Source of the DNA: Pirellula sp.
Lineage (GTDB): Bacteria > Planctomycetota > Planctomycetia > Pirellulales > PNKZ01
DNA length: 64,000 nucleotides
Reading direction: 5' to 3'
Assembly (NCBI GenBank): GCA_013822735.1
Contig: PNKZ01000019.1
Location: 62,001 to 126,000 of the forward strand
Position numbers and translations under genes: made by a program. Below are positions 36 through 61,641 of this stretch, one piece after another. Below the pieces are notes generated by a model. That model was not told where the DNA came from and ran no database searches. It saw only the letters and a list, made by a program, of their open reading frames with translations. The first letter of the stretch is position 1; each line of letters begins with the position of its first letter.

Positions 36-2828
36 CTATCGCGCCGCTTCGATCGTTACGTCGTCGAGCAGCGCGGATCCCGCACCGCCCAGCGCCGCGG
101 TGAGCGTGATCTCGCCGTCGACCGGCACCATGCGGCAATAGCTGAACCGTTGCCAGCCCGCGGTCTTGCCGAAGCGTTCGGCCAGCGGTTCGCCGCCGAG
201 CGAATCGAAAACGATGAATCGCTCGCGACCCTTGGCGATGTCGTCGGGCACGTTGACCCAACCGCTGATCCGCACGACTTCGCCGGCCTGAACGGTTGCG
301 GGGGGCGACACGATCCAAACCGGCGGCGATTCCGTCACGGCGTCGGCCACCTCGGGCGTGAACGCTTGCGCGGTCATTCGCAAACAGAATTGCGAGCGCG
401 GCGTGGGCGTAGCGGAATTATTGGCGGCGCCGTTCGCGCCCGTGCTCGCCGCCGCAGGTTCGCGCATCGCGGCCGCGAGGTCGGCGTCGCAACGCATGTT
501 GTCTTGCGGATGTTGGAAGTGTCGCCAGCCGCTTTGCACGGTGAAGTCCAGGCTTTCAAACTCGCCCCCCGGCAGTAGGCTTTGCCAACTTCCGACCGCG
601 CGCAACCGGCCGAGCATTCGCCAATGGTCGGGCAGCGTAGCGAACGAACTTTCAAACGGCGTCAACGTCGTCGAACCTCCCGCCGCGGCGACGGCCGCCT
701 GCCAATGTGCTCGCTCCAAAAGGGCCAGCGGTCGCAAGGCGCGGCGCGTGTTGAGATAGCCGTCGCGCAAGTTTCCGGCGGCAAAGCGTGCATCGGCCGC
801 GGCCAACACGGTGCGTGCCTGTAGCAACCATTCGGAAGCCTGCGGCAGCGGCGTGGCAATCTCTAAGAGCTCGCCGTGCACGCGCTCGGCCGTACGCATT
901 TTCGCTTGGGTCACTTGGTGCTGGAGCTGCGCCGCCGTCCGGCCGACGGCGTTCATCCGCTGACCCACGACGCTCACCACTTGCGGGTCCTGCGTCAGCA
1001 TAATCAGCGACGTCAGGCTAAATTCATCCACGGTGATGCGCAGCCCGCCCGCGACCCGTTGTCGCGCGAGTGGTCGCATGCCGCCGGGGGAAAGTTCATA
1101 TACGTCGACCGACTCCGGCACGCCCGGCACGACGAACGTCAGCCCGGTTCCCGCCGATTGCCCCGGCACGAATTGCGCCCGAGCTCCGGTCCACATCGGC
1201 AAGAGCAGGTGTCCGCGATCGATCTGCAGCAGCGCGCCGGAAACGTCGGGCTCGCTCCCCGGCACGCGCGTCACAAACGTGCCGGCCGCGGCCCAAGCGT
1301 CGACCAATTCCAATTCGAGGTTGATCAGGTTCAGCGCCGCAGCACGGGTGCGCGTCGCGTCGTCGTTCGCGTTCAGCGGAGTTTGCGAATCGAACTTCAG
1401 CCCGCGCACGCCGGCGGCGAGCGCTTCGAAGACCATCAGCCGGATCTGCTCGCTTTCGACTTCCGGAATCACCGGCTTTTGTAGCGAGAGCAATTGCGCC
1501 TGCCGCCCGAGTTCGCGCGAGGCCTGCGTTTGGATGACGGCCCATTGCGGGGTGCCGGGACGTGCGAGCCGGGTCCGATCGCGCAACCAATCGCCGTAAT
1601 CGGCGAGCTCAAACGTCGTTCCCATCGGCAATCGCTTGGTGACGACGACGTCGACCTGCCGACTAAGCGAACGCAGGTCGGCCGCCGCTTGGCAGAGGAT
1701 CGGGCGCGGTCGCGGGAGGTCATGCCGACGGACGTGCTCGGCCCAACGCTTCAGCACGTCGAGATCGGCGGCCGAGAGTCCTTCGCCGAGGTCCCAGGCC
1801 AGGACCGATTGAAACGCTTCGCCGAACTCCAACACCGAGGTCGGCGTCGAGGCGCCGTACGGGTTGCCGAGGTCGGCCGGTTGTGGCGGCGGGCAGATGA
1901 TCCAGAGCCCGAGCTTCGCCGCTTCCTCCAAAGTTTCACGCGACGGCGTCGTGCGCATGCGCACCGTGTTAAAGCCGAGCTGCTGCAGAAACGGCAGCGG
2001 TTCCCCTTGGTGCTCGATGATGCGAGGAAAAAATTGTTTGCCGCGGACGAGCACCGTCTGCCCCTTGAGTTCGACAACCGACACGGCGCCGGCGACCGGT
2101 GCTCCGTCGGGCGTTTCGCTCGTGCGGCTGATCGGCATGAAGCCGTCCATCTGCGGCAAGGGCGACGGGGCATTCACGGCGGCCCCGGGTTGCGGCTCCG
2201 TCGGCGCGTAAACGATGCCGGTCACTTCCAGATCGTCGAGCCAGACCTGATGCTTCCCCGCGCCGACGTACACGTTCAGCAGCAGGCGATCGACGTACGA
2301 TTGGCGCGTGTCGACCGGCAGACGGAGCTGAGCCCGGAGCACGCGGGCCTGCTGTTCCACTTGATTGCGGATGTTCGTAACGGTGAGCCGTTCCCATTGT
2401 CCCGGCTTGGTGGAACTCGTGCCGAGAATCACGGCCGTCACGGGGCGTTGCGAATTGGGTTCGAGCGTGCGCGGAAAGACGACGCGGGCTGCGAACTGCA
2501 CGCCCGGCTGATCGGCCTTCACCCACAGGCCGGCGGTCAACTCATCGATCACCGGCGCGTTGCCTAGGTTATAGCTGAGGTAGATCGCCGTGCCGCCGTC
2601 GGAGCTTTGCGTCTCTACGAACTCGCAGCCGTTGCCGCTATGGGCATCTTGGGCGATGCGCAACTGTCGCTCGATTTTGTAGCGAGCATCGCCGCCGGCG
2701 TCGCGCCAGGAAGGTTCGTGCGTTTCGAAGCCTTCGTGCGTTTGCGCGCTGGCGCATGAAGCGGCGAGCGCCAGGATCCATACCGGCGCAACGAGCCACG
2801 GTCGCAATCGACGAACCAGCGCGCGCAT
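36..2828 (-). CDS. Secreted multidomain glycosidase-like protein of unknown specificity
   Basis: About 930 residues. I use the ATG at 2828 because it opens a clean signal peptide (Arg-rich start, hydrophobic core, cleavage near ASCASAQ); the frame can be extended to a GTG at 2867. After the signal comes a beta-rich region like a carbohydrate-binding module. Near residues 260-320 the segment GKQFFPRIIEHQ then LGFNTVRM resembles the first strands of the (beta/alpha)8 barrel of GH2/GH5-type glycosidases. The C-terminal 200 residues look like a second binding module. I cannot point to a pair of catalytic acids, so enzymatic activity is not established. It probably acts outside the cytoplasm. The divergent neighbour is a small conserved cytoplasmic protein. 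Confidence 0.75.
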   Translation of the reverse strand: MRALVRRLRPWLVAPVWILALAASCASAQTHEGFETHEPSWRDAGGDARYKIERQLRIAQDAHSGNGCEFVETQSSDGGTAIYLSYNLGNAPVIDELTAGLWVKADQPGVQFAARVVFPRTLEPNSQRPVTAVILGTSSTKPGQWERLTVTNIRNQVEQQARVLRAQLRLPVDTRQSYVDRLLLNVYVGAGKHQVWLDDLEVTGIVYAPTEPQPGAAVNAPSPLPQMDGFMPISRTSETPDGAPVAGAVSVVELKGQTVLVRGKQFFPRIIEHQGEPLPFLQQLGFNTVRMRTTPSRETLEEAAKLGLWIICPPPQPADLGNPYGASTPTSVLEFGEAFQSVLAWDLGEGLSAADLDVLKRWAEHVRRHDLPRPRPILCQAAADLRSLSRQVDVVVTKRLPMGTTFELADYGDWLRDRTRLARPGTPQWAVIQTQASRELGRQAQLLSLQKPVIPEVESEQIRLMVFEALAAGVRGLKFDSQTPLNANDDATRTRAAALNLINLELELVDAWAAAGTFVTRVPGSEPDVSGALLQIDRGHLLLPMWTGARAQFVPGQSAGTGLTFVVPGVPESVDVYELSPGGMRPLARQRVAGGLRITVDEFSLTSLIMLTQDPQVVSVVGQRMNAVGRTAAQLQHQVTQAKMRTAERVHGELLEIATPLPQASEWLLQARTVLAAADARFAAGNLRDGYLNTRRALRPLALLERAHWQAAVAAAGGSTTLTPFESSFATLPDHWRMLGRLRAVGSWQSLLPGGEFESLDFTVQSGWRHFQHPQDNMRCDADLAAAMREPAAASTGANGAANNSATPTPRSQFCLRMTAQAFTPEVADAVTESPPVWIVSPPATVQAGEVVRISGWVNVPDDIAKGRERFIVFDSLGGEPLAERFGKTAGWQRFSYCRMVPVDGEITLTAALGGAGSALLDDVTIEAAR

Positions 2829-30174: not shown

Positions 30175-31086
30175 TTACCGCCGATTGGCAACCTTTGCAT
30201 CTTCGTGACTATCCCAAAAATCGTTCTCGTGAACGATCAGCAATTGGTGGCCATTCTTTCGGTGACTGATGGCCTGCTCTACTTTGCGACCGTAGCACGC
30301 ATATGCCCAGCAAGGATTGCCGTCGGCGCCGATGATTAGATAGTCGATGCCGAGAGTGACACGCTCTGAAAATCGACCGCCGAGTCCTTCGACGATCTGA
30401 ACCAACTCATTTCGTGATAGTCGTTCGGATTTGCCTGTGAAGCAGAACACTCTCTCTCTGAAAGAGATTTCCGGGCAGACGGCACAAATTCCAGAGACGG
30501 TTATGGACGAAACATCAGGTAGCGCCACGGAGCGGTGTCCCGTCGTGCTGGCGAAGTCGGCGAAAAACCGCAGCAACATTCCATGTTCGTCTTTGTCGAT
30601 TTTGCCGTCCTTGAGAACGGAAATAATTAACGCTTCCAACTCGTCGTAAGGCCAACATTTTTTCAGGTGGTCGTGACATTCCATCCACTCTTGCAGAGTT
30701 CCCAATTCCTCTTCAGTGATTTTGCCGTCAAACGATATTCCTGCCATCATCCCATGAAGTCGTTGCATATCGGCGGTCACAACATCGAAGTAGCCGTCTC
30801 CCGTTGTGAACTTCGTGCAAAGCCAAAGAAGATTGTCTCGTTCCTCGCTGTCGATCTTCTTGTCTTGAAGGGCGTTCAGAAGAACAGGGATGATCTCATT
30901 GAATGGATGCTTGAAGCAGAATTCGTAATGGTCGTGGACCCAGCCGCTCAGCATCTTCACGTCGTCCGGGCCAATTTCTCCATCGGCGGCAGCGCCCTTC
31001 AATAAGCCTTCAAGAGTGTGGATTGCTTTGTCCAACCGCTGCGGTCCCGTGTACTTATAGTAGGACGCATTTTCGTCGTTGAGCAT
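30175..31086 (-). CDS. Four-repeat TerB-like protein with C-terminal BRCT domain
   Basis: 303 residues from the ATG at 31086, with GGAG eight bases upstream; the longer frame to 31209 has no support. Residues 20-185 hold four helical units of about 40-45 residues, each with an acidic turn: DGEIGPDD (35), DKKIDSEE (75), DGKITEEE (120) and DGKIDKDE (160), like TerB or EF-type turns. Residues 208-292 form a BRCT domain (RVFCFTGKSERLSR, VEGLGGRFSERVT, DYLIIG, KVEQAISH), as in NAD-dependent ligases. BRCT domains bind DNA ends or phosphopeptides. Codon use and GC are unlike the housekeeping neighbours. Confidence 0.8.
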   Translation of the reverse strand: MLNDENASYYKYTGPQRLDKAIHTLEGLLKGAAADGEIGPDDVKMLSGWVHDHYEFCFKHPFNEIIPVLLNALQDKKIDSEERDNLLWLCTKFTTGDGYFDVVTADMQRLHGMMAGISFDGKITEEELGTLQEWMECHDHLKKCWPYDELEALIISVLKDGKIDKDEHGMLLRFFADFASTTGHRSVALPDVSSITVSGICAVCPEISFRERVFCFTGKSERLSRNELVQIVEGLGGRFSERVTLGIDYLIIGADGNPCWAYACYGRKVEQAISHRKNGHQLLIVHENDFWDSHEDAKVANRR

Positions 31087-44743: not shown

Positions 44744-45052
44744 CTAGATCGGCGGCTGGCCGGGTCCGCGGACATGCATGACGTGAACCACCTGCTGCTC
44801 AACGCGAAACAACATGCGATATGGCCGGCCGTGCGGCGTGCGAAAAATCAACTGGCGAATGACATGGCCTTTGTGCGGGCTTTCATCCGCGACCGACCAA
44901 CTCTCCGGTGAATTCTCGAGAACATCCGTCGATGAAAAGAACTCGGCGAGCCACGTGGCGGCGCCTTGTTCGGAATGTTCTCGGAGCCAGTTGAATATTC
45001 GCTGCGCATCCTCTTGAGCTCGCGGCAAGACAATGACGCGATACTTGCTCAT
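44744..45052 (-). CDS. RelE/ParE-family toxin
   Basis: 102 residues. ParE/RelE fold signatures: YRVIVLPRAQEDAQRIFNWL at the N-terminus, IRQLIFRTPHGRPYRMLFRV and VVHVMHVRGPGQ at the C-terminus. Members either inhibit gyrase (ParE) or cleave mRNA (RelE); the sequence alone does not decide. Its ATG overlaps the stop of the upstream antitoxin gene by four bases (ATGA), the usual coupling in such pairs. Confidence 0.88.
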   Translation of the reverse strand: MSKYRVIVLPRAQEDAQRIFNWLREHSEQGAATWLAEFFSSTDVLENSPESWSVADESPHKGHVIRQLIFRTPHGRPYRMLFRVEQQVVHVMHVRGPGQPPI

Positions 45053-45291
45053 TCCGACGGAATCCCGTTTCGCTTACGAAACTCCTCTTTGAATTCTGCG
45101 AGCGGCGTTCCGAGCCCTGCTGCGATTTGGTCGGAAGCTTCGTCGAGCGCACGGATCGTGTCGCGATGTTCCGCCCAGTAATGCAAAGCGTCGCGCAGCA
45201 GGTCGTTTGACGACGCATATCCGCCGTACGACATTTCACGCTGAACAAGTGATTGCAGATCGACGGGCAAGTAACCAGCATCGGAACTCAT
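45049..45291 (-). CDS. ParD-like antitoxin
   Basis: 80 residues from the ATG at 45291 (another ATG is immediately upstream at 45294), after GGAG. The pattern LPVDLQSLVQREMSYGGYAS, then SNDLLRDALHYWAEHR is that of a ribbon-helix-helix DNA-binding dimer, and the acidic C-terminus (LAEFKEEFRKR) should wrap the toxin. It represses its own promoter in known relatives. It lies 62 bases downstream of the inositol-phosphate synthase gene on the same strand, so read-through is possible. Confidence 0.83.
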   Translation of the reverse strand: MSSDAGYLPVDLQSLVQREMSYGGYASSNDLLRDALHYWAEHRDTIRALDEASDQIAAGLGTPLAEFKEEFRKRNGIPSE

Positions 45292-45356
45292 CATTTGGCT
45301 CCAGGGGCTACATTCAAATTAGCAAGACTGCCCAACGTCGGCAAATTCGACGTCGT

Positions 45357-47173: not shown

Positions 47174-47966
47174 CGCCGTTCGAAACGTGCCGACGTGGGA
47201 AGTACGGCGCCGCTTGCAGCATCGCCCCGCCGGTCGGCCCGCCATGTATCAAACGTGGACCGATCTGTTGTTCGCGCATTGGCGCGTCGAGCCGGAGCGC
47301 ATTCAGCGCACGTTGCCGAAAGGTTTGTACGTCGACACGCTCGCCGGCTCTGCCTACGTCGGCGTCGTTCCCTTTTTCATGCGCAATATTCGCCCGCGCG
47401 GTTTGCCGGCCGTGCCCGGCATTTCCAACTTTTTGGAACTCAACGTGCGCACCTACGTGCACGACGAGGCCGGCACGCCCGGCGTTTGGTTCTACTCGCT
47501 CGATTGCAATCAGGCGTTGGCCGTGTGGACGGCACGAACTTTCTTTCATCTGCCGTATCGTCACGCCCGGATGAGCGCCGAGTGCGCGGGCAATCGTATT
47601 GCGTACGCTTCCGCGGTGCGTTCGACTTCGCTACGTTGCGACGTGACTTACGCCTTGCAGCGAGATACGGCCGCGGCCCGACCGGAGACGCTCGAGTTCT
47701 TCTTGGTCGAGCGTTATCTCTTGTACTCCGCCGCGGCCGACGGGCGATTGTTTACGGGCCAGGTCCATCATCGGCCTTATCCGGTTGCGGCGGCCGAGAT
47801 CATCGGCGACGAAGCTCCGCGGCCGTGGTATTGCAACCTGTTCGATCCCCACGACTTCGGCATCGATGCCGCGCGGCCCGACCACGTGTGCGGCTCGCCG
47901 GGCGTGGAGGTGGAAGTGTTCGGGCTCGAGCGTCACTTGCTGCGAGACGCGACCGTCGGCAAATAG
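47166..47966 (+). CDS. DUF2071 (YqjF-like) protein
   Basis: 266 residues from the ATG at 47166, inside the end of the cupin gene (ATGCCTGA). Family landmarks: MYQTWTDLLFAHWRVEPERI, LPKGLYVDTLAGSAYVGVVP and FLELNVRTYVHDEAGTPGVW, then FHLPYRHARMS. DUF2071 has a beta-barrel fold of unknown function and often appears with cupins or VOC proteins. The last 34 bases overlap the 3' end of the converging TPR gene. Confidence 0.9.
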   Translation: MPDAVRNVPTWEVRRRLQHRPAGRPAMYQTWTDLLFAHWRVEPERIQRTLPKGLYVDTLAGSAYVGVVPFFMRNIRPRGLPAVPGISNFLELNVRTYVHDEAGTPGVWFYSLDCNQALAVWTARTFFHLPYRHARMSAECAGNRIAYASAVRSTSLRCDVTYALQRDTAAARPETLEFFLVERYLLYSAAADGRLFTGQVHHRPYPVAAAEIIGDEAPRPWYCNLFDPHDFGIDAARPDHVCGSPGVEVEVFGLERHLLRDATVGK

Positions 47967-48547
47967 GCCTTGGCCGTCGCATTTTCCGGATCGAGGGCGA
48001 GGATCGCTTCGATCAGTTGCTTCACGTCCAATTGCTTCAACGCCGCACTGCAGACCAGTTGTTCGGCCAAGAAGCTGACGTCGGTCGGATACAGTTCCAA
48101 CATCCCGGCGTTCAGGTCGCGGGCCGGGCGAAACTTGCCTTGGATGCGCAAGGCGGTAGTCAGCCGGAGTGCGGCCGTGTATTGGTGGGCGTCGTTACCG
48201 AGAATCGTCTTACAGACGGCTTCCACTTCTTGCCACTTCTGCTCCGCCATCAAGGGGAGCGTGTAGCCGAGCCGCGGCTCGACCGACTTGGGCGCCATGC
48301 GCATGGCCGCTTGGTAGAACTGCTTCGACGACGCGTAGTCGCCCCGCAGATAATGCAGCCAGCCGAGCCGCATGTTGACCAAGTACGTTTGCTTCCGCGC
48401 GCTCAAGAGCGCGGTGACCGCTTCGTCGTACTGCTGCGACCGCTCCGCTTCGTACGATTTTACGAGGGCATCTTGTACGGCATCGGCTCGTGCCATGGTC
48501 GGCAGCATCGTCGCTGCGAAGAGAAGGAGTACGGATAAGTGTCGCAT
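47933..48547 (-). CDS. Secreted TPR protein
   Basis: 204 residues, ATG at 48547 with AAAGGA nine bases upstream. Signal peptide MRHLSVLLLFAATMLPTMAR. The mature part has TPR helices: ALVKSYEAERSQQYDEAVTA, MRLGWLHYLRGDYASSKQFY, LGYTLPLMAEQKWQEVEAV and LRIQGKFRPARDLNAGML. It starts 12 bases after the stop of the transporter-M23 fusion gene and is probably cotranscribed, so it may be a periplasmic partner. Its 3' end overlaps the converging DUF2071 gene by 34 bases. Confidence 0.8.
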   Translation of the reverse strand: MRHLSVLLLFAATMLPTMARADAVQDALVKSYEAERSQQYDEAVTALLSARKQTYLVNMRLGWLHYLRGDYASSKQFYQAAMRMAPKSVEPRLGYTLPLMAEQKWQEVEAVCKTILGNDAHQYTAALRLTTALRIQGKFRPARDLNAGMLELYPTDVSFLAEQLVCSAALKQLDVKQLIEAILALDPENATAKAYLPTVASRSK

Positions 48548-48559
48548 GGTAACGATCCT

Positions 48560-50758
48560 TTAACGGGCGCCGACGATTAATTCGTATGATTCATCCGTCG
48601 GGTCGACGGCTGGGAGCTCGGCAGGGAGCAATTCTTCGTGCGGCATGCGCACCACGTCGACCGGCTCGGCCTTGCGCACGCGCAGTTCCCACGCGCCACA
48701 GACGACGGCGCCGATCCCGTAGCGTGCGTCAAGCTCGACCCGGGCCGTACGCACGCCCAAGCCGAGCGGCAAATGGAGCGTCGTTTCAATCATGTCGGCC
48801 GACGTGTAACGGTGCGACGTCTCGACACGCGCCGCCGGTGCAAAAAGCGGCGCCGCGCCCCAGGCCAGCCAACGCCGCAGGCCGCGCGTCGCCAAACCGA
48901 CCGGAATGCAATCGCGCCATACGCTATGTCGGCCGCGCACCAGCGGTAGCCGGGGGATCGCCGCAAAGAGCAAGCTGAGCAACGGATCGCGCCCTTCCAG
49001 ACGATAGAAGTAGAACGTGCCGTCGAGCTTCCCGAAGTAAAGCTTGCCGCGGCCGGGGCAATCGAGATAGAGCGTGCCGTCGATCGCCATCTTCACTTCG
49101 AGCCGCAAGCTGCCGGCGGGCCGACCATGATGCACGACGTCGTACGTCACGACGTCGTTGAGCAGAAATTCCATCGCGGCGTCGAGCCGATCGTCGACGA
49201 CGGCCGGTTCGACCACGGTCCCCTTCTCCGGCCGCGCTTGAGCGTGGAACATGCCGCCGCTGCGGAACCGTGCAAATGCAAACGGCAGCGTGCCGCCGTC
49301 GACCTGCTCCGTCGCCTGTACGTGAATATGCAGATGCGGCTGCGGCGAGTAGCCGGAGTTGCCGCAAAGGCCGAGCAACTGTCCACGCTCGACCTGTTGC
49401 CCGACCGCAACGGCGATCGAACCTTGTGCGAAGTGCGACAGCTCGACGTAGAAGCCGCGCTCGTCGTGCACGACGACGTGGTTCCCCCAGTTGTGTAACT
49501 TGTCGACCCGGCCGATCGCATTGTCCGGCAAATCGTCGACCACCTTCACTACGCGGCCGCGACACGGCGCAAGCACCGGCTTGCGAAAGCAAAAGTAATC
49601 GCGCGGCTGTAAGCCTTCGCCGGCGTGCGTTCGGCCGTCGTCGCCGGTGATCACGAAGTCGTAGGCGTAGCGCCAAGGGCCTTGATGGGTCCACTCGTCG
49701 TCGAAACCTTGCCACACCGTCCAGCCGCCGAAGAACGGCAGCGACAGCGTCCGCCCGCCGTCGGCAAAGCGGCGCTTCGCGGCCAGATCGTTCTCCATGG
49801 TTTCCTCGGGCGTCGTGCCGATCACCTTCGCAAGGCCGGAGAATTGTTGCACGCCGAGCGTATAGAGCACGCCGAGCGTCACCAAGTTGAACGGCAGCGT
49901 ATAGGCCGGCACCGCGAAGAAATAGCCGAACACCTGCACGGCGTCGACCAGAACGATCGAGCAGCAGACGGCCGCCGCCGCGATGAGGAAACTGGTCCCC
50001 GACGGCACAAGAAACACGCCGCCGACGGCCATGGCAATCAGCAGGAAGTTGAAACTGTAGACGTCGAGATAGGCCTGCTCCGGATTGTCGAGCAACATCG
50101 CGCGCAGCGAAGTGCCGAGCAGGTATCCGCCGACGGCGAGCCCGAACAGAATCCGCGACCGGATCACGAGCAGCAAACTAAACATCGCTCCGACGGCGAC
50201 GCTCGGCACGAAGACGATCGCCCCGAGCGACTTGCAGAACCCGACGATCACGAGCGGCAGGCCGAAATCGTCGGACATCAGCTCGCTGAGCTTGCGCGAG
50301 TTGAGCCCTAGGCTGCTGTACCGCAGCGCGGCCGTGTGCATGATGGCGCTGCCGACGACGAACGGCAGACTCAGCGCCGGCAGATTCAGGTAGAAGCGGA
50401 AGAGATGCACGATCGCGGCCGTGAGCAGAAACGTCAGCACGCCGGCGACCATGATCAAAAGCGCCGTCGGCCACGACCACGTGAGCGTGGCGCCGAGTGA
50501 AAGGCCCGCCAGCAACGGGTTGTACGTGTAGTAGCCCGATTGCAAGGCTCGGGCATCCATGCGGATGAGCCGTGCGAAGGCATACGCCGCGACGACGGCC
50601 AACAATCCCGCGGCCCCGATTCGCCAATTCAAAAGCGTGCCGACGACGAGCACGAACCCGACCGCCGCGCGGCTCAGAAAGAAGATCTCCGCATAGCTGC
50701 GGACGATGCCTTGAACGACGGCGAACGTGGAACGGAGTGGTTGAAGTAGGTTCGTCAT
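48560..50758 (-). CDS. Urea transporter fused to an M23-type peptidase domain
   Basis: 732 residues from the ATG at 50758; the in-frame extension to 50839 is repeat sequence. Residues 1-310 carry about ten hydrophobic helices with urea-transporter features: SGYYTYNPLLAGLSLGATL, LPALSLPFVVGSAI and VPAYTLPFNLVTLGVL. From about 370 the chain continues with WRYAYDFVI, a lysostaphin-type M23 domain: VLAPCRGRVVKVVDD, WGNHVVVHDERGFYVELSHF, GQLLGLCGNSGYSPQPHLHI. The zinc ligands would be His/Asp in RYAYDF and the HxH in HLHIHV. A further 230-residue C-terminal domain is unknown. A TPR protein gene follows closely. Confidence 0.88.
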   Translation of the reverse strand: MTNLLQPLRSTFAVVQGIVRSYAEIFFLSRAAVGFVLVVGTLLNWRIGAAGLLAVVAAYAFARLIRMDARALQSGYYTYNPLLAGLSLGATLTWSWPTALLIMVAGVLTFLLTAAIVHLFRFYLNLPALSLPFVVGSAIMHTAALRYSSLGLNSRKLSELMSDDFGLPLVIVGFCKSLGAIVFVPSVAVGAMFSLLLVIRSRILFGLAVGGYLLGTSLRAMLLDNPEQAYLDVYSFNFLLIAMAVGGVFLVPSGTSFLIAAAAVCCSIVLVDAVQVFGYFFAVPAYTLPFNLVTLGVLYTLGVQQFSGLAKVIGTTPEETMENDLAAKRRFADGGRTLSLPFFGGWTVWQGFDDEWTHQGPWRYAYDFVITGDDGRTHAGEGLQPRDYFCFRKPVLAPCRGRVVKVVDDLPDNAIGRVDKLHNWGNHVVVHDERGFYVELSHFAQGSIAVAVGQQVERGQLLGLCGNSGYSPQPHLHIHVQATEQVDGGTLPFAFARFRSGGMFHAQARPEKGTVVEPAVVDDRLDAAMEFLLNDVVTYDVVHHGRPAGSLRLEVKMAIDGTLYLDCPGRGKLYFGKLDGTFYFYRLEGRDPLLSLLFAAIPRLPLVRGRHSVWRDCIPVGLATRGLRRWLAWGAAPLFAPAARVETSHRYTSADMIETTLHLPLGLGVRTARVELDARYGIGAVVCGAWELRVRKAEPVDVVRMPHEELLPAELPAVDPTDESYELIVGAR

Positions 50759-50784: not shown

Positions 50785-50989
50785 AATTCCAAGGACCAAG
50801 CACCAAGTTCCAAACAAGTACCAATGATCGAAACTTCAATGTGCGCTGCCGCGCGATTCGGTCATTCGGTCCTTGTTATTTGTTCGGAATTTGGTGCTTG
50901 GTCATTGGTTATTGGTTTTCGTCACAGGCACGTCGGCCTCACGGCTCGACGCTCGCCTTGCGGAACGCCACGGAGGGCGTTCCCTACAG
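50785..50989. repeat. Family-B palindrome followed by a family-A copy
   Basis: Left arm from 50785 (AATTCCAAGGACCAAGCACC...) pairs with the right arm to 50916 (...AATTTGGTGCTTGGTCATTG). This is the second copy of the element at 4191-4330. A family-A hairpin (GGAACGCCACGGAGGGCGTTCC) lies at 50961-50983 just before the stop of the decarboxylase gene. Confidence 0.8.
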
Positions 50990-50993
50990 ACGC

Positions 50994-52388
50994 TTATGCC
51001 TCGCGATGGAGTTCTTCGAGGAACGCCGCTTCATCACGGTTGAGCATCAGCCGCGTCGGCAGCACTTCGCGGCGCTCGATATCGCTCAGGTCTTCCCGTT
51101 GCCGAATCAGTTCGACTTCGCCGGCTTCCGAAACGAGCACGACGTTTGGGCGATACTCGATGAATTGCAGCCATTGCGTGTTGTTGTACGCCCCGACCGG
51201 CGAGAAAATCAGCCGGTGTCCGCGCTCGAGCGGCGGGAGTTGCAGCCCATCGTCGATGGCGTCGATGTTCATGCACATCGGCCCGTACACGACGCTCAGT
51301 TCGTTCGCGCCCGACACTTCGCGATCGACCTCGACGTGGAACTTGTACCAGAACGAGGTGAACAGCAAGTTGATGCCGGCGTCGGCCACGTACGCCCGCG
51401 TGCCGTCGGCGAGGCGCTTCGTCGCTTGAATCGTCGTGATCAGGTAACCGGCCTCGTCGACCAAGTGCCGGCCTGCTTCAATGACCAGCGTCGGAAAGTG
51501 TCCCGGCCGGAGCGAGTTGCGCAGCGCGTCGCAGATTTGCTCCGCGTAATCGTCGATGCTCGGCACGGAGACGTCGGGCGAGAGATAGGTGCCCTTCAGC
51601 TTGCTGCGCGATGGGAAGCCGCCGCCGATGTCGATCGAGTCGATCTCGTAGCCGAAGGCGGCTTGCACTTGGTAGGCGAACGCCACGAGCTTCTCGACTT
51701 GGCGCGCGTAGGCCGTTTCGTCGGTGATGAAGGTGCCGATGTGGCAATGCAGCCCCGTAAGCCGAAGTTTACCGCCGCGCGAAATGCGCTTCACCGCATC
51801 GATCGCTTGGCCCGACTCGAGGTTAAAGCCGAACCGGGACCATTGCGGATGGATGCCGACGTCCATGTTCAGCCGGATGCCGACGTCGATCGTGCGGCCC
51901 AGCCGGTCGGCCATGTGTTCCAGGTCGTTGATCTCATCGAGGTGATCAATGTTGATCGTCGCGCCTGCGACGACCGCCGCGGCCAGCGTCTCGAGCGGCT
52001 TGTGCGGACCGTTGAAGATGATCTTGTCGCCGGGAATCCCCAGGGCCTGCGCCTTCTCAAATTCCATTTTCGAGACGATTTCCGCCACGGCACCTTCCTG
52101 GTGCATGATGGCGCAGATCGCCTTCAGGTAGTTGGTCTTATACGACCAGCCGAAGACGACGTTCGGGTAACGCGTGGTGAACGCCGAGTGCATCTGCCGA
52201 TATTTGCGACGCAGCGAACGCTCCGAATAGACGAACAGCGGCGAGCCGTACGCGTCGACGAGATCGGCGATCTTCGCTCCCTCGATCTGCTTGCGCACGC
52301 GGCGCCCTGCACCGGGCTGGAAGCCGTGCTTGTTCATCATCCGGCTCTGCAGCTTCATCAGAAACGGCTTTTCGTAGGCTCGCTTCAT
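50994..52388 (-). CDS. Fold-type III PLP-dependent decarboxylase (DAP/ornithine-decarboxylase-like)
   Basis: 464 residues from the ATG at 52388 with GAGGAGA upstream; the longer frame to 52970 is only antisense-like shadow of the previous gene. Landmarks: GWSYKTNYLKAI with PLP-binding Lys84, GLHCHIGTF, DIGGGFPSRS, LVIEAGRHLVDEAGYL (phosphate and substrate loops) and GPMCMNID with the catalytic Cys. The substrate could be diaminopimelate, ornithine/arginine or a carboxyspermidine-like compound. Its start overlaps the ATP-grasp gene stop by four bases (ATGA). Confidence 0.92.
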   Translation of the reverse strand: MKRAYEKPFLMKLQSRMMNKHGFQPGAGRRVRKQIEGAKIADLVDAYGSPLFVYSERSLRRKYRQMHSAFTTRYPNVVFGWSYKTNYLKAICAIMHQEGAVAEIVSKMEFEKAQALGIPGDKIIFNGPHKPLETLAAAVVAGATINIDHLDEINDLEHMADRLGRTIDVGIRLNMDVGIHPQWSRFGFNLESGQAIDAVKRISRGGKLRLTGLHCHIGTFITDETAYARQVEKLVAFAYQVQAAFGYEIDSIDIGGGFPSRSKLKGTYLSPDVSVPSIDDYAEQICDALRNSLRPGHFPTLVIEAGRHLVDEAGYLITTIQATKRLADGTRAYVADAGINLLFTSFWYKFHVEVDREVSGANELSVVYGPMCMNIDAIDDGLQLPPLERGHRLIFSPVGAYNNTQWLQFIEYRPNVVLVSEAGEVELIRQREDLSDIERREVLPTRLMLNRDEAAFLEELHREA

Positions 52389-53440
52389 TGCGTCTCTCCT
52401 CGCATCACGACGTTCTGAAAACAGTTCATATCGGTGACCATCTCGTACGTGTAGCGCATGAAGAAGCGCCCGGCGTCGTAGGTGTCGGTCGAGTCCAAAG
52501 GCAAGCCGAGCGTGTGTCGCAGCATGCGCCCCGGCAAGTTCACGCCGACGCCGGTGGCGAAGTACGACCACGCGGGAAAGCGCGGGTTGATCTCGATGAG
52601 GTACAGCTTGCCGGTTTCGGGATCGGCGATGCATTCCAGTTCGTACGGCCCGCGCCATTGCGTGCCGGCGACGAAGCGCTCGGCGGCGGCGGTGAGGGCC
52701 GGGTTCTTGAGCGTGACGGCCGCCCAAACTTTGCCGAGCGACGTGATGGAGACCTTCTTCATGGCCACGCTGCCGAGCGAACCCCCTGCCCCGTCGCCGA
52801 CGCCGACCAAATTGAGTTCGTCCCCCTTCACCAGCTTCTGCACGATGACGGGGTAGCCCCACTCGGCTGCGATCGCGCGGAAATGGCCGGCCGCTTCGAG
52901 ATACGTATAGGCCGTGTGCGCCAGGTAGTAGGCCCCTTTCACGACCAGCGGAAAGCCGATCTCCTCGCACGCCTCGAAGAGCGCTTCTTCGCTCGCGACG
53001 AAGCGGGTTTCCGGCACGTCGATGTCGAGCGCGGCGGCGACCTCGGGCAATTTGTCTTTACCGCGCAGGCGAAACTGTTTCATCGTCGGGAGAAACGTGC
53101 GGATGCCGGCCGCCGCGAGTTCGTCGGCGTAGCGAATGTAGAGCGGCAGCTCGACGTCGAGATTCGGCACGACGAAGTCGAGACCGTGCGTCGCTTGGAT
53201 TTCCAGCAGTCGAGCAATAAAGTCGTCGCCGCCGCCGGAAGGATACGGCAAGGTGAACGAGCGCTCGAAGAGCCAGTCCATGTAGATGCCCGGCTCAAGC
53301 GCGTCGTACGCGAGCCCGACGACGCGGGCTCCCAAGGCGCCGTCTTCCAGCAGGCTGCGGGCCACGCCGGTGCCGGGCCCGGGGTTGTCCGCGGCGTTGA
53401 TGCCGGAGACGCCGACGACGAAATCGGAACGACGAATCAT
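52385..53440 (-). CDS. ATP-grasp ligase
   Basis: 351 residues. The N-terminal pre-ATP-grasp domain begins FVVGVSGINAADNPGPGTG and has PNLDVELPLYIRYADELAAA. The ATP-grasp core has KDKLPEVAAALDIDVPETRF, GFPLVVKGAYYLAHTAY (nucleotide-binding Lys), YPVIVQKLVKGDELN (hinge) and YLIEINPRFPAW with the Glu and Asn that bind magnesium. It forms an acyl phosphate and joins it to an amine; the substrates are unknown. It sits in a tight operon, eight bases after the PqqD-like gene and overlapping the decarboxylase gene. Confidence 0.9.
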   Translation of the reverse strand: MIRRSDFVVGVSGINAADNPGPGTGVARSLLEDGALGARVVGLAYDALEPGIYMDWLFERSFTLPYPSGGGDDFIARLLEIQATHGLDFVVPNLDVELPLYIRYADELAAAGIRTFLPTMKQFRLRGKDKLPEVAAALDIDVPETRFVASEEALFEACEEIGFPLVVKGAYYLAHTAYTYLEAAGHFRAIAAEWGYPVIVQKLVKGDELNLVGVGDGAGGSLGSVAMKKVSITSLGKVWAAVTLKNPALTAAAERFVAGTQWRGPYELECIADPETGKLYLIEINPRFPAWSYFATGVGVNLPGRMLRHTLGLPLDSTDTYDAGRFFMRYTYEMVTDMNCFQNVVMRGETQ

Positions 53441-53448
53441 GGCCGTGC

Positions 53449-53694
53449 CTATACGAGTTGGAAGTTCTTCAGCCGGGAGAGAAAGTCGACGACGTCGCGT
53501 CGGGCTTCCTCGTGGTCGACGCTGTAACGCGAAGTGAGGTCGGCGACCAGCGCCGCTTCGCCGCGCCCTTCTTGTAGGCCGCGGAGGATCGCCACGGCCG
53601 TGGGATTGGCGACGTAGCTCTCGCCCGAGCCGGGGTCGAAGAGGAAACCGTCGTCATGAAAGACGATCTGCGCTAAACGTTCGGCGACGCTCAT
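53449..53694 (-). CDS. PqqD-like protein (peptide-recognition fold)
   Basis: 81 residues; ATG at 53694, or GTG one codon earlier, after GAGG. PqqD/RRE pattern: FHDDGFLFDPGSGESYVANPT, AVAILRGLQEGR, VADLTSRYSVDHEEARRDVV and DFLSRLKNF, the wound helix-turn-helix fold that binds leader peptides in RiPP pathways. It is the first gene of the ATP-grasp/decarboxylase operon. No short precursor-like gene was found on the 340 bases upstream, which carry a family-C repeat. Confidence 0.87.
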   Translation of the reverse strand: MSVAERLAQIVFHDDGFLFDPGSGESYVANPTAVAILRGLQEGRGEAALVADLTSRYSVDHEEARRDVVDFLSRLKNFQLV

Positions 53695-58251: not shown

Positions 58252-60339
58252 ATGAATCCGTACTCGCTCGCTCGGTCGGTAATGTCTCGTCTCGGCCGAC
58301 CGTTTCGTCAAGCCGTTTCTCGGCCGCGCGACGCCTTTCGCAAACTCGGCGCCGAGATGCTCGAAGAGCGGATCAACTTCTCGGTCGACCTGACCGGCCT
58401 GGGGATGACCGCCACGGTCGAATCGTACGACGGCACCGGCAACAACCTCGCGAACTCGCTCTGGGGTTCGGCCGGCACCGACTTTCTGCGCAAGTCGACC
58501 GCCGAATATGCCGACGGCGTCGACGACCCTTCCGGCGCCGATCGGCCGAGCGCCCGACTGGTGAGCAACCTCGTTGCCGCGCATCCCGATTCGGCCATTC
58601 TGAACGATCGCGACCTCAGCGCGTTTATCTACGCCTGGGGACAATTCCTCGACCACGACGTCGACCTCACGAACACCGGCACGCCGGCCGAGAAGTTCAA
58701 CATCGCCGTGCCGACCGGCGACGCTTGGTTCGACCCGAACAGCACGGGCACGCAAACGCTCGGCCTGACCCGCTCGCAGTATGATTCGGCCACCGGCACC
58801 GGCGTGAACAACATTCGTCAGCAGGTTAACTCGATAACGGCCTACATCGACGGCTCTCAGATCTACGGTTCCGACGCCGCCACGGCCGCTTCGCTTCGCA
58901 CGTTCTCCGGCGGACGATTGAAGACAAGCGAAGGCAACCTGCTGCCGACCGCCGCCGACGGCTCGTTTCTCGCCGGCGACATTCGCGTGAATGAGAATAT
59001 TGAGCTCATCTCCATGCAGACGTTGTTCCTTCGCGAACACAATCGCCTGGCCGACGGCATCGCGAAGGCCAATCCGAAGCTGACCGACGAGCAGATCTTC
59101 CAGCAAGCTCGCCGGATCGTAATCGCCGAACTACAGGTGATCACCTATAAGGAGTTCATCCCCGCCCTACTCGGCGAAGGGGCGCTGAAGTCGTACGCCG
59201 GCTACAACGCCGGCGTGAATGCGGGCATCTCCAACGAGTTTGCCGCAGTCGGGTTCCGCATCGGCCACAGCATGCTCGGCTCCGACGTCGAATTTCTCGA
59301 CAACAACGGCAACGAAGTGCGCGAAGCAGTGGCGCTACGCGACGCCTTCTTTAATCCGGGATTGATCAAGGAGACCGGCATCGATTCGGTGCTCAAGTAT
59401 CTCGCCTCGGATCGGGCCGAAGAAATCGATACCAAGGTGGTCGACGACGTGCGCAACTTCCTCTTTGGTGCGCCCGGCCAAGGGGGGCTCGATCTTGCGT
59501 CGCTCAATATCCAGCGCGGTCGCGATCACGGACTGCCCGACTACAACGACATGCGGGCCGCCTACGGTTTGAAGAAGGTAACGAGCTTCGCGCAGATCAC
59601 GTCCGACGTCGAACTGCAGAAGCAACTCCAAGCGGCGTACGGCACGGTCGACAAGATCGACGCCTGGGTCGGCGGCCTCGCGGAGAAGCATCAGCCCGGC
59701 AGCAGCGTCGGCGAACTCTTCTCAAGAATCCTCGTCGATCAGTTTACGCGGTTGCGCGACGGCGACCGGTTCTGGTATCAGAACACGTTTTCCAAGGCCG
59801 ACGTACAGAAGCTGGAGCAAACGACGCTGGCCGACGTCATTCGCAACAACACGACCACGACGAACCTGCAACGCGACGTGTTCTTCTTCCACGCGTCGAT
59901 TTCCGGCTCAGTGTTTCAAGACGCCAACGCCGACGGCCTGCGAAAGGCCGGCGAACTCGGCGCGGCCGGCATCCATCTGCAATTGCTCGATTCGGTCGGC
60001 ACGGTCGTCGCGACGGCCCGGACCGATGCTTTGGGGAACTACACCTTCAAGGGGCTCGATCTCGGCCAGTACACCATTCGCGAGCAGACGCCGGCCGATG
60101 CCAAGGCCACGACCACGACGACGGTCGCCGCGGCGATCACGCGCGGCATGGATATCCGGCACGTCGACTTCGGCATCACGAAGCTACAGAAGCCGACCAC
60201 TCCGCCGCCGCCGCCGGCTCCTCCGGCCCCGCCGAAGCCTCTCCCGTCGCCTCCTCCGCCGCCGGTGAAGTTGGCAGCCGGTGGCGAGATCATGCGAGCG
60301 CAAGCGGAGCAGACCACGAAGCCGCCCGCGAAGAAGTAG
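58252..60339 (+). CDS. Animal-type heme peroxidase with SdrD_B-like domain and Pro-rich tail
   Basis: 695 residues; ATG at 58252 with GGGAG upstream. The peroxidase domain spans about 45-560: WGQFLDHDVDL with distal Gln131 and His135, TAYIDGSQIYGSD, TLFLREHNRLA and proximal His339 in VGFRIGHSMLG, then SLNIQRGRDHGLPDYN. Oxidises substrates with hydrogen peroxide, as in peroxinectin/myeloperoxidase relatives. A beta-sandwich domain (SGSVFQDANADGLRKAGELG) and a PPPPPAPPAPP tail follow. There is no classical signal peptide; the N-terminal GAEMLEERINFS resembles the LE-x-R motif of planctomycete surface proteins. Confidence 0.93.
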   Translation: MNPYSLARSVMSRLGRPFRQAVSRPRDAFRKLGAEMLEERINFSVDLTGLGMTATVESYDGTGNNLANSLWGSAGTDFLRKSTAEYADGVDDPSGADRPSARLVSNLVAAHPDSAILNDRDLSAFIYAWGQFLDHDVDLTNTGTPAEKFNIAVPTGDAWFDPNSTGTQTLGLTRSQYDSATGTGVNNIRQQVNSITAYIDGSQIYGSDAATAASLRTFSGGRLKTSEGNLLPTAADGSFLAGDIRVNENIELISMQTLFLREHNRLADGIAKANPKLTDEQIFQQARRIVIAELQVITYKEFIPALLGEGALKSYAGYNAGVNAGISNEFAAVGFRIGHSMLGSDVEFLDNNGNEVREAVALRDAFFNPGLIKETGIDSVLKYLASDRAEEIDTKVVDDVRNFLFGAPGQGGLDLASLNIQRGRDHGLPDYNDMRAAYGLKKVTSFAQITSDVELQKQLQAAYGTVDKIDAWVGGLAEKHQPGSSVGELFSRILVDQFTRLRDGDRFWYQNTFSKADVQKLEQTTLADVIRNNTTTTNLQRDVFFFHASISGSVFQDANADGLRKAGELGAAGIHLQLLDSVGTVVATARTDALGNYTFKGLDLGQYTIREQTPADAKATTTTTVAAAITRGMDIRHVDFGITKLQKPTTPPPPPAPPAPPKPLPSPPPPPVKLAAGGEIMRAQAEQTTKPPAKK

Positions 60340-60558: not shown

Positions 60559-61641
60559 CTAAAACAAATTCATCTGCCCGCTCGCCGGGCGCGGCGGCTG
60601 AAAGAGCGAGTAGTCGTACTCCGGCATCGGCTGGTCGAGTTTGTACTTGCGCGCGAACACGGCGAACGACTGCGCGATCTGTTCGGCGTATCGGCCGGTG
60701 CCCCGTTGTCGTACCGAGAAATCGGTTTGATAGAGACTGCCGTCGCGCGTATCGCGAATCAGCGCTTCGACCCGATCGCGCTTGTCGGGATAGTTCTGCG
60801 TCACCCAATCGAGAAAGATCGGCTTCACGGCGTGAGGCAATCGTAAGAGCACGAAGCCGGCGCGCCGCGCTCCCGCTTCCGCCGCGGCGGCGAGGATTTT
60901 AGGAATCTCGTGATCGTTGAGCCCCGGCACGACCGGCGCGATCATAATGCCGACCGGAATACCCGCGGCGCTGAGCGTGCGAACGGCAGCGAGCTTCGCG
61001 GCCGGCGACGACGTGCGCGGCTCCAGCTTGCGCGAGAGCTCTTGGTCGAGCGTGGTGATGCTCAGGCGAACTTGCACCAGGTTTATCGCCGCGAGTTGTG
61101 CGAGCAGGTCGACGTCGCGCGTCACCAGCGCGTTCTTGGTAATGATGCCGGTCGCTTGGCGCGCTTCGAGCATCACTTCCAAGAGGCTGCGCGTGAGCCC
61201 GAAGCGTCGCTCGGCGGGCTGGTAACAATCGGTGACGCCCGACATCACGATGAGCTCCCCTTTCCACGAGGAGCGGCAGAGTTCCTCGCGCAGCAGCTTC
61301 GCGGCGTCGAGTTTCACCATGATCCGAGTTTCGAAATCGATTCCCGCGTTGAAGCCGAGATACTCGTGGCCCGGTCGGGCATAGCAATACGCACAGCCGT
61401 GTTCGCAGCCGCGGTAGGCGTTGACGCTGTAGTCGAAGAAAACGTCGGGACTATCGTTCTTGGCGATGATCGATTGCGACGCATCGACGAAAAACTGGGT
61501 CGGCACGCGCCGCTCGGCCGTGAGAAGTTCGTCGTCGCCGGCAAGCTGCTCATAGTCGTCTTCGAGGTGAATCGACTCGAAGCGATTCCCCGGACTCACC
61601 GTGGCGCCGCGTCCGACGATTGGTTTGGAGTTTTCCGCCAT
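60559..61641 (-). CDS. PA0069-family radical SAM protein
   Basis: 360 residues. The iron-sulfur motif is NAYRGCEHGCAYCYARP near residue 76-92, C-x3-C-x2-C with the Cys spacing of radical SAM enzymes. Other family segments: VGRGATVSPGNRFE at the start, GVTDCYQPAERRFGLTRSLL, GIITKNALVTRDVDLL, RLSITTLDQELSRKLEPRTS and PVVPGLNDHEIP. The group is related to spore photoproduct lyase-like proteins; its substrate is unknown. Upstream, its promoter area meets a family-D repeat. Confidence 0.94.
   Translation of the reverse strand: MAENSKPIVGRGATVSPGNRFESIHLEDDYEQLAGDDELLTAERRVPTQFFVDASQSIIAKNDSPDVFFDYSVNAYRGCEHGCAYCYARPGHEYLGFNAGIDFETRIMVKLDAAKLLREELCRSSWKGELIVMSGVTDCYQPAERRFGLTRSLLEVMLEARQATGIITKNALVTRDVDLLAQLAAINLVQVRLSITTLDQELSRKLEPRTSSPAAKLAAVRTLSAAGIPVGIMIAPVVPGLNDHEIPKILAAAAEAGARRAGFVLLRLPHAVKPIFLDWVTQNYPDKRDRVEALIRDTRDGSLYQTDFSVRQRGTGRYAEQIAQSFAVFARKYKLDQPMPEYDYSLFQPPRPASGQMNLF

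Follow-up and report, generated by a model that had tools for sequence, protein, structure and literature searches.

Introduction

Searches that use RiPP recognition elements (RREs) to find clusters for ribosomally synthesized and posttranslationally modified peptides (RiPPs) presume that the client of an RRE is a short precursor peptide. In the available part of PMC13381572, the discrete RREs of lasso peptide clusters are described as recognizing a [Y/W]xxPx[L/V/I/F/A] motif in the leader, and the LppB substitutions N33A and D70A are described as almost abolishing and reducing, respectively, the binding of a YxxP leader. PMC12710340 also lists YxxP for lasso RREs, and the word "decarboxylase" is absent from its main text. 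We analyzed a 64,000-nt stretch of Pirellula sp. (GenBank assembly GCA_013822735.1, contig PNKZ01000019.1, positions 62,001 to 126,000 of the forward strand), called the window here and used for all feature positions. It contains an operon with a PqqD-family gene in which the same motif that lasso precursors carry on a short peptide sits instead on a 464-residue pyridoxal 5'-phosphate (PLP) decarboxylase.

In butirosin biosynthesis, BtrJ and BtrK are an ATP-grasp ligase and a fold type III decarboxylase that acts after ligation, and an acyl carrier protein is used; we know of no RRE or leader motif in that system. The rhizoferrin decarboxylase FslC/FigC acts on an amino acid that is already amide linked (N-citrylornithine), and its partner is a nonribosomal peptide synthetase-independent siderophore (NIS) synthetase, unlike the ATP-grasp enzyme of the operon studied here. 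According to PMC7857480, FigC has T327, T330, Y331, and M355 where enzymes for basic amino acids and diaminopimelate (DAP) have acidic residues or Arg. The E-64 pathways, like the operon studied here, pair a ligase with a decarboxylase; in the part of PMC12568646 that was available, the decarboxylase supplies a free polyamine, the clusters contain an ATP-grasp gene and were sought through that decarboxylase, and no RRE or transporter fusion is described. Our searches of an open-access library gave no description of the present operon or of a leader motif on an enzyme.

Results

The operon decarboxylase begins with a leader-like tail that carries the lasso-type motif YEKPFL. Its gene is the third of five same-direction genes on the minus strand between positions 53694 and 47933:

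53449..53694, minus strand: PqqD-family discrete RRE, 81 residues (PF05402, profile search against structures, residue conservation)
52385..53440, minus strand: ATP-grasp ligase, carbamoyl-phosphate synthase-like and PRK12767-like, 351 residues (NF009405; 2pn1 by profile and fold)
50994..52388, minus strand: fold type III PLP decarboxylase, FslC-like, 464 residues (profile, Foldseek, catalytic residues)
52305..52388, minus strand: leader-like N-terminal tail of the decarboxylase, residues 1 to 28 (motif counts; low-confidence region of the AlphaFold2 model)
52359-52376, minus strand: YEKPFL motif, tail residues 5 to 10 (sequence motif)
within 52305..52388, minus strand: MNKHG, tail residues 18 to 22
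48560..50758, minus strand: urea transporter (UT) domain fused to an M23 metallopeptidase domain, 732 residues (PF03253, 6e-54; PF01551, 3e-12)
47933..48547, minus strand: tetratricopeptide repeat (TPR) protein, 204 residues, with an N terminus that resembles a signal peptide by eye (TPR match; travels with the operon in relatives)

A preliminary description of this stretch had presented the first three genes as a complete operon without a visible precursor. The three open reading frames (ORFs) are as described, with intact enzyme cores, an 8-nt gap between the PqqD and ATP-grasp genes, and a 4-nt overlap between the ATP-grasp and decarboxylase genes. The three-gene border does not hold, since the UT-M23 fusion and the TPR gene come next in the same orientation and accompany the trio in relatives. 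No separate precursor is present among the operon genes of the window, as had been said, but the YEKPFL motif on the decarboxylase had been overlooked. The 235 nt between the decarboxylase and fusion genes are occupied by a dispersed genomic repeat. This inverted repeat (50789-50908), with 44-nt arms that are 84% complementary, has 87 matches in the genome including itself, many of them the two strands of one place, and is a dispersed palindromic repeat.

We collected 98 loci, 18 through the ATP-grasp gene in genomes of the phylum and 80 through a decarboxylase alignment; the latter are the best 80 of at least 571 relative-encoding stretches (among 587) in a scan of named genomes. The decarboxylases of these operons begin with an extension of the form YEKPxIxKLxxGxMNKFG, and its [YW]xxPx[ILV] core matches the lasso leader motif bound by discrete RREs. 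The spacing from the motif to a Gly and to the end of the leader is presumably similar in the two cases. The extension lies outside the alignments to solved structures, the two shown starting at profile positions 26 and 32, and the N terminus of FslC did not align with it. In the AlphaFold2 model, the predicted local distance difference test score (pLDDT) is below 50 at residues 6 to 8 and 10 to 28 and at least 90 at 365 of the 464 residues, so that a disordered tail on an ordered enzyme is predicted.

The motif was strongly enriched in the operon enzyme. In a tblastn-anchored recount, [YW]..P.[LVIFAM] preceded the catalytic domain in 97 of the 98 loci, the exception being L037. By gene calls, it was present within the first 45 residues of 77 of 80 decarboxylase-like genes versus 18 of 1,028 other genes, an enrichment of about 55-fold; the three misses were a mis-set start (L074), a fragment (L089_3), and a LysA-like gene (L090_2). 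The 18 loci collected by way of the ATP-grasp gene were not selected for a tail, and there the motif occurred in 16 of 17 called decarboxylases versus 2 of 226 other genes. Within the same 19 genomes, 19 of 20 operon-type enzymes carried it versus none of 10 distant paralogues, which are 24 to 28% identical and LysA-like by similarity only (4 of the 34 matches, without a locus, were left out).

Among 96 tails selected by the motif, position 0 was Tyr in 91 and Trp in 5, position 14 was Asn in 67, position 15 was Lys in 82 and Arg in 8, and position 17 was Gly in 72. Position 15 was Glu, Thr, Pro, Ala, or Asp in the other 6, and we rejected this Lys as an obligatory modification site because Arg and other residues occur there. 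The codons of the motif vary, which indicates that selection acts on the protein; on this ground we rejected a signal at the RNA or translation level as the source of the conservation.

The PqqD protein matched PF05402 with an E value of 6.1e-15 (55.7 bits; cut-off, 23.4), and the closest solved relatives of its profile were the lasso B1 proteins TfuB1 (6jx3; 5.9e-14) and TbiB1 (5v1u; 7e-14), followed at lower rank by another lasso PqqD-family protein (1.9e-06) and the PqqD of pyrroloquinoline quinone synthesis (3.5e-05). The RRE-type fold proposed earlier is thus borne out. N30 was kept in 54 and D67 in 55 of 57 aligned operon PqqD proteins, and the two are 37 residues apart, as are N33 and D70 of LppB; we equated the pairs from their spacing and the motif rather than from superposed structures. 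These comparisons support the assignment of the PqqD protein to the leader-binding kind of RRE. The operon protein also scored 46.6 bits against the PqqD of the HPr-rel-A system (TIGR04353; cut-off, 35 bits), whose neighbor genes differ; the HprK_rel_A partner (TIGR04352) was found in none of four genomes, a weak result given that a control search was likewise silent. We saw no covariation between Tyr or Trp in the tails and published RRE specificity residues. The operon gene was the single PF05402 match in the window genome.

Conservation of the gene set had been put forward as a check, and the set proved to be kept far beyond Planctomycetota. ATP-grasp relatives at an E value of ≤1e-20 were present in 19 of 294 genomes of the phylum, the window genome included, and most of the 18 other neighborhoods carry this gene unit; several are cut by contig ends, and the gene caller gave no ATP-grasp gene at L025. 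By record titles, the best 80 stretches, mostly metagenome-assembled genomes, represent more than 20 phylum-level groups, including Verrucomicrobia, Aquificota, Cyanobacteria, Gemmatimonadetes, Calditrichota, Ignavibacteria, Campylobacterales, Thermodesulfatator, Elusimicrobia, Myxococcales, Gammaproteobacteria, and others. In the 78 of these loci with a called decarboxylase, ATP-grasp lay directly upstream in 73, PqqD preceded ATP-grasp in 68, and the UT gene was directly downstream in 68. The decarboxylase of L043, a record titled Planctomycetota bacterium, was 90% identical to that of the window. A plasmid search with the decarboxylase gave no more than two matches, both haloarchaeal, 30% identical, and annotated as lysA.

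A six-frame search found PqqD in 87 of the 98 loci, and 8 of the 11 misses were at contig ends. Two tailed enzymes without an adjacent PqqD had an operon-type PqqD elsewhere in the genome (89 bits in G272, the source of L029, and 121 bits in the L072 genome). The remaining case was L037, where the decarboxylase tail is missing and the 90%-complete genome (G112) has no PF05402 match; we found no second loss of PqqD and tail in its family (6 genomes) or class (12 genomes). In seven contig-end genomes that were checked, PqqD gave a match in six, weak in two of these (27 and 36 bits), and none in the L068 genome. The motif, the RRE type, and the co-occurrence together give strong sequence evidence that the decarboxylase tail is the ligand of the RRE. 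PqqD had earlier been supposed to hold a peptide or carrier; within the operon, the decarboxylase itself is the best candidate ligand.

The decarboxylase keeps its catalytic residues, as had been noted for Lys84, the GGG loop, and the Cys: K84, G257, and C372 were each present in 70 of 70 sequences of alignment A3, with G255 to G257 invariant (loci L030 to L038, of the Sir2-fusion type, are excluded from these active-site counts and from the AlphaFold2 model). By profile, the enzyme matched FslC (1.8e-97) better than LysA (1.1e-72), and Foldseek agreed, with 7kh2 first; BtrK (7ru7) was also among the profile matches. The scores of the enzyme were below the cut-offs for both LysA (TIGR01048; 236.6 bits versus an equivalog cut-off of 297.9) and FslC (NF041039; 228.2 bits versus 500). 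We rejected identity with LysA because of this score and because the pocket Arg that binds the distal carboxylate in DAP decarboxylase (R343) aligns with T344 here. T344 (69/70), Y348 (67/70), and M373 (69/70) correspond to FigC T327, Y331, and M355, by a residue mapping read by eye from the profile alignment, so that one pocket Thr, the Tyr, and the Met after the Cys are common to the operon enzyme and its closest solved relative by sequence and fold. These FigC-like residues suggest that the substrate is an amide-linked amino acid and that the ligase acts first. At one locus, L032 (5066-6481, plus strand), the decarboxylase lacks the PLP lysine (YSAVANPL) and keeps the YxxP tail and the Cys; another tailed copy (L139) is present in its source genome, G023.

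The ATP-grasp ligase is complete, in agreement with the preliminary description: the core residues K128, K168, E283, N285, and R287 were each present in 61 of 61 sequences (alignment A4). It scored 64.8 bits against NF009405 (cut-off, 390), and by profile search of structures its sequence was nearest to 2pn1 (2.7e-24) and to carbamoyl-phosphate synthase. The predicted model (pLDDT, 95.3) also had 2pn1 as its best fold match, a likeness that does not reveal the substrates.

The transporter domain matches Pfam UT, with 110.2 bits against TIGR03441 (equivalog cut-off, 274.6). Residues H358, D367, H442, H475, and H477 of the M23 domain were conserved in 73 of 73 aligned fusions; the zinc ligands among them are putative and the H358-D367 spacing is unusual, and the domain appears to keep its zinc and catalytic residues. 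A sirtuin replaces M23 on the transporter in eight loci (L030 and L032 to L038). The cut gene of L031 starts a UT-sirtuin fusion too, and the sirtuin of L028 is a separate neighboring gene; Pfam confirmed UT and SIR2 for L033, and L028 was also scanned by Pfam. Nine aligned sirtuins keep the GAGxSTESG, TQNxD, and HG motifs and two CxxC pairs. Many sirtuin-type loci also have a second ATP-grasp-like gene, together with one for a TPR protein of ~810 residues. UT proteins have both termini in the cytoplasm, which suits a sirtuin dependent on NAD. Because M23 peptidases and sirtuins both cut amides and the UT ends are cytoplasmic, cleavage of an amide at the channel mouth by the fused hydrolase is plausible.

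A co-oriented gene of 265 to 330 codons without a TPR match followed the UT gene in 31 of the 62 loci with a next gene, a class defined by length only. A TPR gene often follows. The ~290-residue product has a signal-like start; that of L041, the sole one scanned, had no Pfam or NCBIfam match. The window operon has no such gene.

The layout matches no RiPP class that we could name or find, as had been anticipated. We rejected a lasso cluster because no short YxxP precursor, B2 protease, or C cyclase is present among the operon genes of the window. The best match to B2-type PF13471 in the window genome was 24.7 bits (cut-off, 26), and C cyclase was not searched genome-wide. The statement that no radical SAM gene is adjacent also stands: one is located at 60559-61641, ~7 kb from the operon.

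At L068, a 64-residue ORF (246-437, plus strand, TTG start) fills the gap between the ligase and decarboxylase genes with short overlaps. It carries KKYHKPIIEKV...STSKYG, a tail-like YxxPxI...SKYG layout, and has no Pfam or NCBIfam match. We found no homologue in six other genomes and one weak match in its own (E value of 0.002, with an internal stop). Apart from this ORF, we saw no short precursor such as a graspetide cluster would have. A strict scan of 39,272 six-frame neighborhood ORFs for a leader plus an NKFG-like segment gave, outside decarboxylase reads, only this ORF and an antisense frame of the L067 decarboxylase.

Discussion

We propose that the client of this RRE is an enzyme, not a small precursor, in a conserved biosynthesis-transport operon, and we give this best explanation of the whole somewhat better than an even chance. 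The PqqD protein would bind the disordered [YW]xxPx[ILV] tail as lasso B1 proteins bind leaders, and this docking would assemble the decarboxylase and the ATP-grasp ligase into one unit. The ligase would couple an amino acid to a partner through an amide, and the decarboxylase, judging by its FslC/FigC-like active site, would then strip the alpha-carboxylate from the conjugate. The transporter-fused M23 peptidase or sirtuin could trim the amide at the cytoplasmic mouth of the urea-type channel, and a small product would cross the membrane, presumably with help from the TPR protein and from the ~290-residue protein that many relatives have. Parts of the earlier interpretation persist in this scheme, namely, a leader-binding RRE in an unfamiliar, conserved layout; the order of the reactions and the operon border have changed.

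Several observations count against this proposal. The best 80 stretches were ranked by similarity to a tailed query, which favors tailed enzymes. Combined loss of PqqD and tail is a single, unreplicated case (G112). The tails with Trp occur without the Asn-to-Gly and Asp-to-Gln changes typical of the W-binding paeninodin RREs. In the decarboxylase pocket, W347 (68/70) is unlike FigC T330, and Ile375 replaces FigC H357. The tail of L032 survives loss of the PLP lysine, a poor fit with a purely catalytic role. Finally, conservation past YxxPxI (Lys or Arg at position 15 in 90 of 96) exceeds the needs of simple docking; docking alone accounts for YxxPxI and does not explain the conserved NKFG-like segment.

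These last two points fit a RiPP-like role of the tail, in which a PqqD-guided ATP-grasp enzyme modifies the segment after the leader (~NKFG) to give a modified or self-carrying decarboxylase. The L068 ORF, which resembles a stand-alone leader-plus-core peptide, fits this role too. We saw only one such peptide, and neither its own genome nor six others yielded a convincing homologue. The would-be site has no invariant residue, which is why we favor docking; we consider modification of the tail unlikely, although it is the strongest of the alternatives.

The preliminary description had the decarboxylase make an amine that the ligase attaches to a peptide or carrier held by PqqD. A general form of this order, in which a free amine is joined by the ATP-grasp enzyme to a peptide or small acid, has the adjoining ligase and decarboxylase genes in its favor, together with the logic of the E-64 clusters as given in the available part of PMC12568646. 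Against it, the pocket residues for binding basic amino acids or DAP are replaced as in FigC, a likeness that favors ligation before decarboxylation, and the leader motif is on the decarboxylase, not on a small peptide. We therefore regard the amine-first order as distinctly unlikely.

The decarboxylase could also be its own leader-bearing precursor or carrier: PqqD would present the tail, the ligase would build an amide-linked amino acid on it, the enzyme would decarboxylate this cargo, and M23 or the sirtuin would free it for the channel. Such a system would amount to an assembly line built on RiPP logic in which the carrier is an enzyme, and we rate it as rather improbable.

The usual clients of RREs are small precursors, small genes can easily escape notice, and our YxxP scan covered neighborhoods rather than whole genomes, so the true client might be a cryptic precursor encoded elsewhere and the tail merely leader-like. 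The strict neighborhood scan yielded only the L068 ORF and the L067 antisense frame beyond decarboxylases, the motif is ~55 times commoner in decarboxylases than in other genes, and the window genome has no second PF05402 match, all of which make a cryptic precursor very unlikely. That the PqqD protein is a plain winged-helix protein paired with the motif by chance is scarcely credible, even though PF05402 includes many proteins of unknown use, because N30 and D67 are conserved, the nearest solved relatives are leader-binding B1 proteins, and the co-occurrence extends over many phylum-level groups.

If the client of the RRE is indeed the decarboxylase, then a leader motif can serve to dock a metabolic enzyme, and enzymes may also be the clients of some orphan PqqD genes. 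A widespread metabolite pathway with its own peptidase- or sirtuin-fused channel, of which our searches gave no description, would then await characterization; its spread by titles among the best 80 stretches includes thermophilic Aquificota, Campylobacterota, and Cyanobacteria.

Other genes in the window

A gene at 30175-31086 (minus strand) encodes a 303-residue protein for which Pfam at 0.001 gives only a BRCT domain, at the C terminus (PF00533, 4.9e-06). The stretch 44744-45294 (minus strand) holds a ParE-family toxin gene (PF05016, 2.6e-07) and, upstream of and overlapping it, a small antitoxin-sized gene without a Pfam match at 0.001. The gene at 58252-60339 (plus strand) encodes a heme peroxidase of the animal type (PF03098, 2.9e-161) whose C terminus carries an SdrD-B-like domain.

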